This document shows, one piece after another, positions 33,182 through 35,144 of a stretch of 64,000 bases of DNA (position 1 is its first letter; each line of letters starts with the position of its first letter). Under the pieces are notes generated by a model. The model ran no database searches. It was not told the origin of the DNA and was given only the letters and a program-made list of their open reading frames with translations. The stretch is from Pantoea allii. Lineage in GTDB: Bacteria > Pseudomonadota > Gammaproteobacteria > Enterobacterales > Enterobacteriaceae. The DNA lies in assembly GCF_002307475.1 (NCBI RefSeq), contig NZ_NTMH01000003.1:186001-250000 (forward strand). Reading direction: 5' to 3'. The position numbers and the translations under genes were made by a program.

Positions 33182-33525
33182 AGTGAGCTCCTTGAACTGT
33201 TGTCAGGTACTTAAGCCTGGCACAGATGTGATGTTTGTCACATTCAACTGCTTATTTAATGCACGAAGCCAGTTAAAAAAGGACTTTATCAGACAAATTC
33301 CCCGACATAATGTCCGCTAAGCGCAGCGGTAATAGCAGAATATATCGATTATGTGTTTTGGCGGCAGGCGCAGGCACGAAACGGAAGAGAACAGCAGCGA
33401 CGAATAATCGCGGGTTGCTTACGCTAAGCTATTGAGAACAGGGCAGTTATGACGAGTATGAATAAGCGATTGTATTAAAGGAGATTAAGGAGGAGAATAA
33501 AGCAATGCGGAGTGATGTTAAATGT

Positions 33526-33554
33526 TTGTACAAATGTTTCTAAGATGTTACTAT
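33526..33554 (+). promoter_or_regulatory. Sigma-70-type promoter of the ArcZ-like small RNA
   Basis: TTGTAC (33526-33531), 17-nt spacer, TACTAT (33549-33554). The predicted start near 33561 coincides with the first base of the RNA's 5' stem. The -35 box lies in the palindrome TTTGTACAAA. Confidence 0.6.
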
Positions 33555-33560
33555 GAGTGT

Positions 33561-33661
33561 CCCGGCCAGCACCACTTTATAGTTTGTGACGTCTGGCCGG
33601 AAAGTTTTTCCCTGGTGTTGGCTGTTTTAGCGACCTGGCCTTGCAGGTCAGGTTTTTTTTT
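33561..33661 (+). ncRNA. Probable small RNA carrying the ArcZ seed (candidate EsaS)
   Basis: About 100 nt, no coding frame. The 5' end forms an 8-bp perfect stem CCGGCCAG (33562-33569) / CTGGCCGG (33593-33600). An unpaired pyrimidine-rich segment then contains TTTCCCTGGTGTTGGC (33607-33622), identical over 16 nt to the seed of the Hfq-dependent ArcZ small RNA as I remember it from E. coli, which pairs with rpoS, flhDC, tpx and sdaC mRNAs. A terminator stem GACCTG / CAGGTC (33632-33649) and nine T end the RNA. The E. coli arcZ locus is beside arcB/elbB, not here. An EsaR-activated putative sRNA, EsaS, has been described upstream of esaR in P. stewartii; this could be it. Target set is inference. 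Confidence 0.72.
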
Positions 33662-33731
33662 ACCGCTAAACAACTTGAAGCCATTGTAACCTCTGGATGA
33701 ATCATTGTAAGTTATTCTTAAGTATTATCTT

Positions 33732-33751
33732 ACCTGTACTAAAGTGCAGGT
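33732..33751. promoter_or_regulatory. esa box (EsaR operator) at the esaR promoter
   Basis: ACCTGTACTAAAGTGCAGGT is a 20-bp near-perfect palindrome that fits the lux-box-like esa box known from P. stewartii. It is 39 bases before the esaR ATG, where apo-EsaR would block its own transcription until the AHL signal accumulates. Confidence 0.85.
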
Positions 33752-33790: not shown

Positions 33791-34540
33791 ATGTTTTCTT
33801 TTTTTCTTGAAAATCAAACAATAATGGATACGCTTCAGACTTACATACAGAGAAAGTTATCTCCGCTTGGCAGTCCTGAGTACGCTTACACGGTGGTGAG
33901 CAAAAAAAATCCTTCAAATGTTCTGATTATTTCCAGTTATCCTGACGAATGGATCAGGTTATACCGTGCCAACAATTTTCAGTTAACCGATCCGGTCATC
34001 CTCACCGCCTTCAAACGGACCTCGCCGTTTGCCTGGGATGAAAACATTACCCTGATGTCCGATCTGCGGTTTACCAAAATTTTCTCATTATCAAAGCAGT
34101 ACAACATCGTTAATGGCTTTACCTACGTGCTCCATGACCATATGAACAACCTCGCGTTGCTCTCCGTCATTATTAAGGGCAACGATCAGGCAGCCCTGGA
34201 GCAGCGCCTTGCGTCTGAGCAGGGCACCATGCAGATGCTGTTGATTGATTTTAATGAGCAGATGTATCGACTGGCCGGGACAGAAGCCGAAAGAGCACCG
34301 ACGGTGAATCAGAACGCCGACAAAACGATTTTTTCGTCGCGTGAAAATGAAGTGTTGTACTGGGCGAGCATGGGTAAAACCTATTCTGAAATTGCCGCCA
34401 TTACTGGTATTTCCGTCAGTACCGTGAAGTTCCACATCAAAAACGTCGTGGTTAAATTGGGCGTCAGTAACGCCCGACAGGCTATAAGACTGGGTGTGGA
34501 GTTAGACCTTATCAGACCGGCAGCGTCAGCGGCCAGGTAG
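33791..34540 (+). CDS. esaR: Quorum-sensing regulator EsaR (LuxR family)
   Basis: 249 residues, the same length as EsaR of P. stewartii and nearly identical in every block I remember. The N-terminal autoinducer domain has the family's Trp/Tyr/Asp pocket residues (DEWIRLYRANNFQLTDPVI, SPFAWDENI). The C-terminal LuxR helix-turn-helix runs from about residue 178 (SSRENEVLYWASMGKTYSEIAAITG, SVSTVKFHIKNVVVKLG). EsaR is active as apo-protein and is released from DNA by 3-oxo-C6-homoserine lactone; it represses esaR and the capsule regulator rcsA in P. stewartii. The 3' end overlaps esaI by 29 bases, convergently. Confidence 0.95.
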   Translation: MFSFFLENQTIMDTLQTYIQRKLSPLGSPEYAYTVVSKKNPSNVLIISSYPDEWIRLYRANNFQLTDPVILTAFKRTSPFAWDENITLMSDLRFTKIFSLSKQYNIVNGFTYVLHDHMNNLALLSVIIKGNDQAALEQRLASEQGTMQMLLIDFNEQMYRLAGTEAERAPTVNQNADKTIFSSRENEVLYWASMGKTYSEIAAITGISVSTVKFHIKNVVVKLGVSNARQAIRLGVELDLIRPAASAAR

Positions 34541-35144
34541 TTACCGCGACGGGCGCACAGCCCGTACGTGAGACAATATCGCCACCCAGTTGTTGTTTAT
34601 CCTCTTCTCCGGCTGGCAGAGTCAGCAGATAAATCCGTTCCTTTTCAGTCAGAAAAGCTTCTTTGACGACGCTGATTTGCCATCCGGACCGTTTCAAAAT
34701 TTTCAGCATTGCCCGGCTGACTATCGTATAGATATGGTTGTACGCGTTATCCTGCGCCCAGTTCACCATCGCTAAAAACAATACCTGACTAATAGGATAG
34801 TGTTCACCCAGCAGTTCGCGTGCGCGTGCTTTATCCACGAAAAAGCGGCTTGACTCCGTGCCACAGGCGGGCAGGGGGACGTCGTTAAAACAGTGCTGGA
34901 AGGTGTGAGTGATCATATTGGGCCGATCCAGGCAGGTAAAGCGCACGCTGCACACTAATTGCCCTTCACAGATCCCCAGAATATAGCGCGTCCCTGGCCC
35001 ATCAAACTCATCCGACTCCATGCCCTGGCTGCATACCACTTCCCATCCCAGGCGGTCGCTAAAAGTTTTTTTTCTGAGCTTATAAAGTTCTTCTGAACGT
35101 GTGGTTTGCAGCTCTTCGTAACTGACGTCAAACAGTTCAAGCAT
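34512..35144 (-). CDS. esaI: Acyl-homoserine-lactone synthase EsaI
   Basis: 210 residues, as in P. stewartii EsaI and almost the same sequence. Catalytic residues of the LuxI family are present: Arg24 and Phe28/Trp34 region in LYKLRKKTFSDRLGWEV, Asp45/Asp48 in GMESDEFDG, Arg68 in CSVRF, Glu97 and Arg100 in CGTESSRFFVD, and the Thr near 140 (IYTIVS) that favours 3-oxo-acyl chains. It makes 3-oxo-hexanoyl-HSL from SAM and acyl-ACP. It is convergent with, and overlaps, esaR. Confidence 0.95.
   Translation of the reverse strand: MLELFDVSYEELQTTRSEELYKLRKKTFSDRLGWEVVCSQGMESDEFDGPGTRYILGICEGQLVCSVRFTCLDRPNMITHTFQHCFNDVPLPACGTESSRFFVDKARARELLGEHYPISQVLFLAMVNWAQDNAYNHIYTIVSRAMLKILKRSGWQISVVKEAFLTEKERIYLLTLPAGEEDKQQLGGDIVSRTGCAPVAVTTWPLTLPV

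Follow-up and report, generated by a model that had tools for sequence, protein, structure and literature searches.

Organization of the locus

We examined a 64,000-nt stretch of the Pantoea allii genome (contig NZ_NTMH01000003.1, positions 186,001 to 250,000 of the forward strand; hereafter the window), in which the region ahead of an esaR-type quorum-sensing receptor gene contains the elements of a small RNA (sRNA) gene on the plus strand and a candidate promoter on the minus strand. The plus-strand RNA carries a 16-nt segment identical to the seed of the sRNA ArcZ, and the predicted minus-strand RNA would carry its exact complement. The features, in window coordinates and with the evidence for each, are as follows.

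33471..33661, plus strand: longer form of the ArcZ-seed RNA, obtained by counting the published 191 nt of pPAR237 back from the T run
33526..33554, plus strand: candidate promoter TTGTAC-N17-TACTAT (TTGTAC 33526-33531, TACTAT 33549-33554); sequence
33561..33661, plus strand: ArcZ-seed sRNA, short form, pPAR237-like; promoter prediction, sequence, covariation, 78.5 bits with core model R2, P. ananatis counterpart
33562..33600, no strand assigned: long hairpin, arms CCGGCCAG (33562-33569) and CTGGCCGG (33593-33600); sequence, covariation, wobble changes
33607..33622, plus strand: 16-nt segment TTTCCCTGGTGTTGGC, identical to the ArcZ seed, with its complement (anti-seed) on the minus strand
33632..33661, plus strand: intrinsic terminator, stem 33632-33654 followed by nine T; sequence
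33545..33676, minus strand: predicted RNA of the EsaS/pPAR238 type, probably also of the YenS type; promoter, pPAR238 primers, fold z -3.4
33683..33711, minus strand: candidate antisense promoter CTTACA-N17-TACAAT (-35 33711-33706, -10 33688-33683); promoter scan, geometry conserved in relatives
33717..33723, no strand assigned: proximal lux-type box core CTTAAGT, adjoining the antisense -35
33732..33751, no strand assigned: esa box ACCTGTACTAAAGTGCAGGT, aligned with GCCTGTACTATAGTGCAGGT of P. stewartii (L022)
33791..34540, plus strand: esaR-type gene; Pfam Autoind_bind and GerE
34512..35144, minus strand: esaI-type gene; Pfam Autoind_synth

An ArcZ seed outside the arcZ locus

The original prediction, made from the sequence alone, had described a plus-strand sRNA here, and the promoter hexamers, stem arms, 16-mer and nine-T terminator that it named are all present. 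Its main claim, that an sRNA other than arcZ carries the 16-nt ArcZ seed beside a quorum-sensing locus, is borne out by genome counts and covariance scores. The 5.24-Mb genome holds exactly two copies of the 16-mer, one at this locus and one at arcZ, and a reversed control pattern occurs nowhere. The second copy (L001) adjoins a protein with HisKA, HATPase, receiver and Hpt domains, as in ArcB, scores 66.5 bits with the Rfam ArcZ model (RF00081), and is the genuine arcZ of this genome. In the Rfam covariance search that had been proposed as a check, the window RNA scored 16.7 bits (E 0.61; cut-off 66 bits) and was rejected as a member of the ArcZ family; Rfam at gathering thresholds gave no match across the window. 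The RNA does contain the seed motif UUUCCCUGGUGUUGGC, and its order of seed, small GC hairpin and terminator is that of the 3′ part of ArcZ, but its 5′ part and terminator are different, it lies beside esaR rather than arcB, and it is luxR-linked with a candidate antisense promoter. ArcZ is processed to its 3′ part and represses flhDC. At arcZ itself, the 16-mer is invariant in 22/22 genomes. A blastn search of E. coli genomes with the 105-nt RNA returned no match at E 1, and two loci in Serratia genomes (L067, L068) gave further weak matches to the ArcZ model, with seed TCCTGGTGTTGGC and no T run nearby.

Two details of the prediction are not confirmed. The seed had been described as unpaired, but is not clearly so in this strain: in the minimum free energy structure of 33561-33661 it is base-paired to the 5′ arm (mean unpaired probability 0.30; 0.54 across 25 hairpin-type loci). 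The predicted start near 33561 also finds no support in P. ananatis, where the counterpart pPAR237 is listed as 191 nt; taking the last T as its end, this length would span about 33471-33661, and because the nested primer used for rapid amplification of cDNA ends (RACE) covers 33544-33563, only 5′ ends further upstream were detectable. The TTGTAC/TACTAT pair is absent from the list of our consensus promoter scan, which returned two minus-strand sites. By eye, no lux-type box precedes the plus-RNA promoter in the window sequence; the earlier statement that an esa box suited to activation is missing stands for the plus RNA but not for the locus as a whole, where the boxes suit a minus-strand promoter. 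The plus RNA holds the requisites of an ArcZ-like sRNA: a candidate promoter, the seed, a small hairpin, a terminator and, for its ortholog, reported Hfq dependence. A 55-aa reading frame (33522-33689) overlaps it on the same strand and shows no sign of being a gene.

A candidate antisense promoter with receptor boxes

Both sites found by the promoter scan lie on the minus strand, with 0.8 sites expected by shuffling, and the weight for the candidate antisense promoter comes from its conservation in relatives, described below. Transcription from it is estimated to begin near 33676, and the RNA would reach the long hairpin or beyond. The arrangement of a candidate promoter divergent from the luxR-type gene and accompanied by receptor boxes is that of EsaS in P. 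stewartii and YenS in Yersinia enterocolitica; the plus RNA, in contrast, has the same direction as esaR. EsaR is reported to bind the bidirectional region and, without acyl-homoserine lactone (AHL), to repress PesaR and activate PesaS (PMC13365800, available in part). Since PesaS is divergent from PesaR, EsaS falls on the minus strand, antisense to the plus RNA. The suggestion that the plus RNA might itself be EsaS is not supported by this geometry; the ArcZ-seed RNA is probably not EsaS, and EsaS would instead cross it antisense, bearing the exact complement of the ArcZ seed. The locus type is shared with EsaS and YenS, both EsaR/YenR-controlled RNAs encoded beside the receptor gene, with EsaS on the strand opposite to the ArcZ seed. 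An EsaR-controlled RNA with an anti-seed, like the wide recurrence of the arrangement in the family, goes beyond what the sequence-only prediction saw.

An orthologous pair has been reported in P. ananatis LMG 2665, where pPAR237 and pPAR238, beside eanIR, are known from RNA-seq with starts from 5′-RACE, are Hfq-dependent and are partly antisense to each other (PMC6749038). The sequence of a nested primer used for pPAR238 (PMC6749038) includes the seed as read on the plus strand, which identifies pPAR238, by inference, as the minus RNA. The part of that report available to us makes no mention of an ArcZ seed, a lux-type antisense promoter or other luxR loci. EsaS, YenS, pPAR237 and pPAR238 are RNAs already known; in the open literature we found no statement of a link between EsaS or YenS and the ArcZ seed, or of a recurring arrangement, though the original EsaS and YenS papers, known to us through reviews and later papers, may mention it.

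Conservation and helix evolution at EsaR-type loci

A blastn search placed the locus on plasmids of Erwinia, Serratia, Yersinia hibernica and Duffyella (13 records), and a scan of named genomes by EsaR alignment gave 23 loci, two of them partial. Our set of 28 EsaR-type loci comprises the window, six plasmid records (H1-H5 and H9; two Rahnella records were read later, and H6, H7, H8, H10 and H13 were not read) and 21 named genomes, the partial L042 and L043 being left out; the LuxR-only matches L017, L019 and L020 were not checked for the sRNA. In 28/28, the seed lies 162-188 nt ahead of the receptor gene with 0-2 mismatches (18 perfect; one change in P. stewartii, L022), so the seed conservation on which the prediction had been staked is found.

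Two helices were assessed in 24 aligned sequences (A2 and A3 omit L030, L034, L040 and L041, which have no long hairpin; A4 omits L030, L034 and eleven duplicates). Ten of the 19 base pairs show changes on both sides. The covariation score, the paired percentage and the count of both-side-changed pairs were each beyond all 500 shuffles, and covariation is supported on four of five measures, while further pair types were not above shuffles (204/500). The two helices differ in the direction of their wobble changes: the long hairpin has 16 minus-only versus 3 plus-only wobble cells, and the terminator stem 10 plus-only versus 4 minus-only, where cells count sequences rather than independent events and nine of the 16 belong to one column. 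When each is folded alone, the minus-strand version of the long hairpin is the stabler one in 18/24 sequences, and the plus-strand version of the terminator stem in 19/24. The wobble pattern agrees with two RNAs, one per strand.

Variant copies occur within the EsaR-type set. L041 has a tandem double seed motif at about 2290-2330, TTTCCTGGTGT and then TTTCCCTGGTGCTGGC, ahead of its EsaR-like gene. Two Serratia loci, L037 and L038, seem to have lost sequence some 160 nt ahead of luxR in a deletion that merges both lux boxes into one; neither has an EsaI match downstream, and by eye both retain the antisense -35 and -10 and the seed.

Recurrence across the family and linkage to luxR and luxI

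We searched 295 genomes from 154 genera of the Enterobacteriaceae, taken in the GTDB sense. A first covariance model (R1) matched in 39/295 genomes, many of its matches adjoining LuxR genes 41-57% identical to EsaR and lacking the 5′ hairpin. Extended to the order, R1 matched in 8/394 genomes, all of the same GTDB family, the share of other families among the 394 not being given. The core model R2, of 54 sequences including the window, matched in 54/295 genomes and 31/154 genera; it was built from R1 copies of the same genome sample, and its 54 genomes are partly its own training. R2 separates the window (78.5 bits) from genuine arcZ (21-29 bits).

Linkage was scored at 67 loci, which stand for 68 places: L140 (14.7 kb) holds two, and its LuxI is some 11 kb away from the seed that was scored. 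Most loci were read with flanks of about 2.5 kb and nine with 1.5 kb, and L173 (which resembles another genome's arcZ), L155, L159, L160 and L164 (no clear terminator) were kept in the denominators. A LuxR-type gene is present in 50/67 loci and a LuxI-type gene in 41/67, against 0/22 for the arcZ control (two tblastn rounds, 1e-8). Two arrangements predominate, with the sRNA before luxR on the same strand or with luxR divergent on the upstream side of the sRNA. Four distant LuxR proteins carry Autoind_bind and GerE, with no NCBIfam match over cut-off.

Counted from the seed, 42/67 loci have a lux-box core within +90..+135, with 0.92 expected by shuffling and 0/22 at arcZ; by arrangement, it is found in 27/34 same-strand loci, 9/11 divergent loci and 3/5 loci of other arrangement. 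In the same-strand arrangement, a minus-strand -10 with at least 5/6 matches lies exactly 34-35 nt from the box in 23/27 box-bearing loci (0.59 expected). Alignment of 62 box-bearing segments gave ACTTAAGTACAACTTAC followed by a TATAAT-like hexamer; these segments were picked for the box core, and only their flanks are independent evidence. The box lies beyond the stretch covered by R2. Present in both arrangements, it is part of the sRNA unit and not merely of luxR autoregulation. That the box drives an antisense RNA is well supported where the sRNA precedes luxR on the same strand, and less well where luxR is divergent.

Some copies depart from these patterns. Pantoea genomes G014 and G021 hold solo copies (L016, L018) with seed variant CCCTGGTGTTTGC, a similar terminator, no EsaR/EsaI match on the 3-kb locus and no lux-box core at +90..+135. 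Genome G251 has four core-model matches (L136, L155, L160, L178), two without a clear terminator, and in G112 the seed of L104/L166 is altered to CCCTGGGGTTGGC by an EsaR-like gene with no LuxI match, possibly a decaying copy.

Seed conservation, pairing and targets

Across 54 aligned copies, identity is 95.6% in the seed core (98.6% for CCTGGTGT), 55% in the linker, 69% in the terminator arms and 91% in the T run, compared with 34-39% in the sequence outside (39% before the seed). The same seed precedes terminators of quite different sequence, and 60/89 distinct copies have a perfect 13-mer seed. The models weight the seed, so these figures are partly selected; the EsaR loci of the 21 named genomes came from a protein search and are free of this selection.

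The seed complement on the minus RNA is perfect or near-perfect. Between the minus RNA and the ArcZ of its own genome, an uninterrupted helix of 12-20 bp (wobble counted) can form in 22/22 genomes, reaching at least 15 bp in 19/22. Sponges, or anti-sRNAs, in which one RNA is complementary to the seed of another, are a known class; the minus RNA differs in being encoded antisense to an ArcZ look-alike, beside a quorum-receptor site, and its sponge action is putative.

For the rpoS and flhD leaders, respectively, duplexes as good were given by 38 and 65 of 100 shuffles for the ArcZ 3′ part, 11 and 4 for the plus RNA, 12 and 73 for the seed with its tail, and 0 and 57 for the minus RNA; these eight comparisons of unrestricted duplex energies are uninformative, and the suggested use of the ArcZ target set by the plus RNA stays putative. 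A 9-bp seed match lies at -143 of rpoS. Against the esaI leader of the same locus (26 loci), pairing is at shuffle level for both the minus RNA (mean rank 0.50, 2/26 at or below 0.05) and the plus RNA (0.46, 4/26). The lower ranks occur mainly in some Serratia and Yersinia loci, and the overall result suggests that control of yenI may be a local feature of Yersinia and Serratia.

A proposed two-RNA switch and its alternatives

We propose that the locus is a two-RNA switch, in which two convergent RNAs antagonize each other, one mimicking ArcZ and the other, driven by the receptor, working against ArcZ, and we give this reading a probability of about 0.55. The anatomy is well supported. Both strands' elements, their conservation and their linkage to luxR and luxI are seen in the sequence, and others have reported both transcripts with their Hfq dependence in P. 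ananatis (PMC6749038) and a divergent PesaS activated by EsaR without AHL (PMC13365800), as far as those sources were available. The antagonism, the titration of ArcZ and the physiological output are inferred, and would proceed as follows. The plus RNA, running from 33561 or earlier to 33661, would act as an ArcZ look-alike and is expected to work with Hfq on ArcZ-type targets. The opposite promoter, whose -35 has one lux-type box next to it and another behind it, would drive an EsaS/YenS-type RNA head-on through the plus RNA, and receptors of the EsaR/YenR kind would activate it only without AHL. At low density, the antisense RNA would be made and would block the plus RNA, either by pairing with it or by interfering with its transcription; bearing the exact seed complement, it may titrate ArcZ as well. 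With receptors active in the absence of AHL, the ArcZ-type signal should then be low. At high density, AHL would release the receptor, antisense synthesis would stop, and the ArcZ-type signal would rise, with RpoS up and FlhDC changed.

Such a switch agrees with reports, in the portions available, that EanR lowers RpoS while ArcZ raises it (PMC7883899) and that YenS stimulates swarming also apart from yenI (PMC4773443, PMC3493969); ArcZ has been reported to modulate flhDC in E. coli (PMC6749038). Through such a switch, cell density may be coupled to the ArcZ stress and motility network. A wider reading is possible but more tentative, and we would not favor it at even odds: across much of the Enterobacteriaceae, LuxR-type receptors would own a convergent RNA pair that tunes the whole ArcZ regulon, ArcZ included, with EsaS and YenS as examples of receptor-driven anti-ArcZ RNAs. 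If true, the wider reading would explain both the control of RpoS by EanR and the yenI-independent effect of YenS on swarming, and would make both directly testable; one class of AHL system would act on genes for stress, motility and biofilm by way of a global sRNA network already in place, instead of acting at many promoters. Although YenS is known as a quorum-hindered sRNA, what these loci conserve most seems to be the ArcZ seed and its complement. PesaR and PesaS are in use in engineered quorum circuits (PMC13365800, PMC12459020; both available in part).

Several observations weigh against the switch. Both pPAR237 and pPAR238 were reported to be plentiful at low density and to drop drastically at high density (Shin 2019, PMC6749038, in the part available); a simple switch predicts a rise of the plus RNA, which the reported fall of pPAR237 does not simply fit, although the quantitative PCR amplicon of each RNA overlaps the RNA of the other strand, and the density result may therefore mix the strands. 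AHL profiles of Y. enterocolitica 8081 were unaffected by yenR, and motility phenotypes vary between strains (Ng 2018, PMC6027161, available in part). Published YenS lengths of 105 and 165/169 nt match no obvious minus-strand terminator in the Y. hibernica copy, where the plus RNA measures 98 nt between the hairpin and the T run, so that YenS is only probably a minus-strand RNA. Among the 67 loci, the lux-box core is found in only 3/17 without a luxR match, so that part of the sRNA family works without a lux box. In the divergent arrangement, a -10 with 5/6 matches is present in 0/9 box-bearing loci and one with 4/6 in 8/9 (1.97 expected), and the antisense promoter there is weaker, or not a promoter. 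Seed substitutions are not biased toward wobble pairing between the minus RNA and ArcZ: 17 are G>A or T>C versus 8 C>T, near the 9:4 ratio of sites, with 15 other changes, and an early impression of bias from a handful of variants was gone in the full count. Accessibility of seed versus anti-seed favors neither strand.

Of the alternatives to the two-RNA switch, the strongest is that the plus RNA is the sole effector, a second ArcZ with its own promoter, the opposite transcript being only a by-product of the region that holds the luxR promoter. In its favor are short copies in which a TTGACA-type promoter immediately precedes the seed (e.g. L138, L141, L148, L153, L154), orphan copies without a lux box and the constancy of the seed while terminators are replaced. 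A by-product fits poorly, however, with a lux box at near-fixed distance to the sRNA even when luxR is on the far side, with the constant spacing of -10 and box in same-strand loci, and with the Hfq- and density-dependence reported for the P. ananatis antisense RNA (PMC6749038, in the part available), and we consider this explanation unlikely, if worth keeping in view. More improbable still is that function lies in the minus RNA (EsaS/YenS) alone, which would be silencing the AHL synthase mRNA, sponging ArcZ or both, with the plus RNA a decoy or inactive. Published YenS-yenI pairing (PMC3493969, PMC3652290; both available in part), the wobble bias of the long hairpin toward the minus strand and the 12-20 bp available with ArcZ in 22/22 genomes are in its favor, whereas the terminator hairpin evolves as a plus RNA, hairpin-less relatives retain the plus promoter, seed and terminator, and duplexes of the minus RNA with the esaI leader are no better than shuffles over the 26 loci. 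Coincidence, an unrelated sRNA happening to hold 16 nt of ArcZ, could draw on the low ArcZ covariance score (16.7 against 66 bits) but is very improbable, being refuted by the seed in 28/28 EsaR-type loci and the perfect 13-mer in 60/89 copies with differing flanks.
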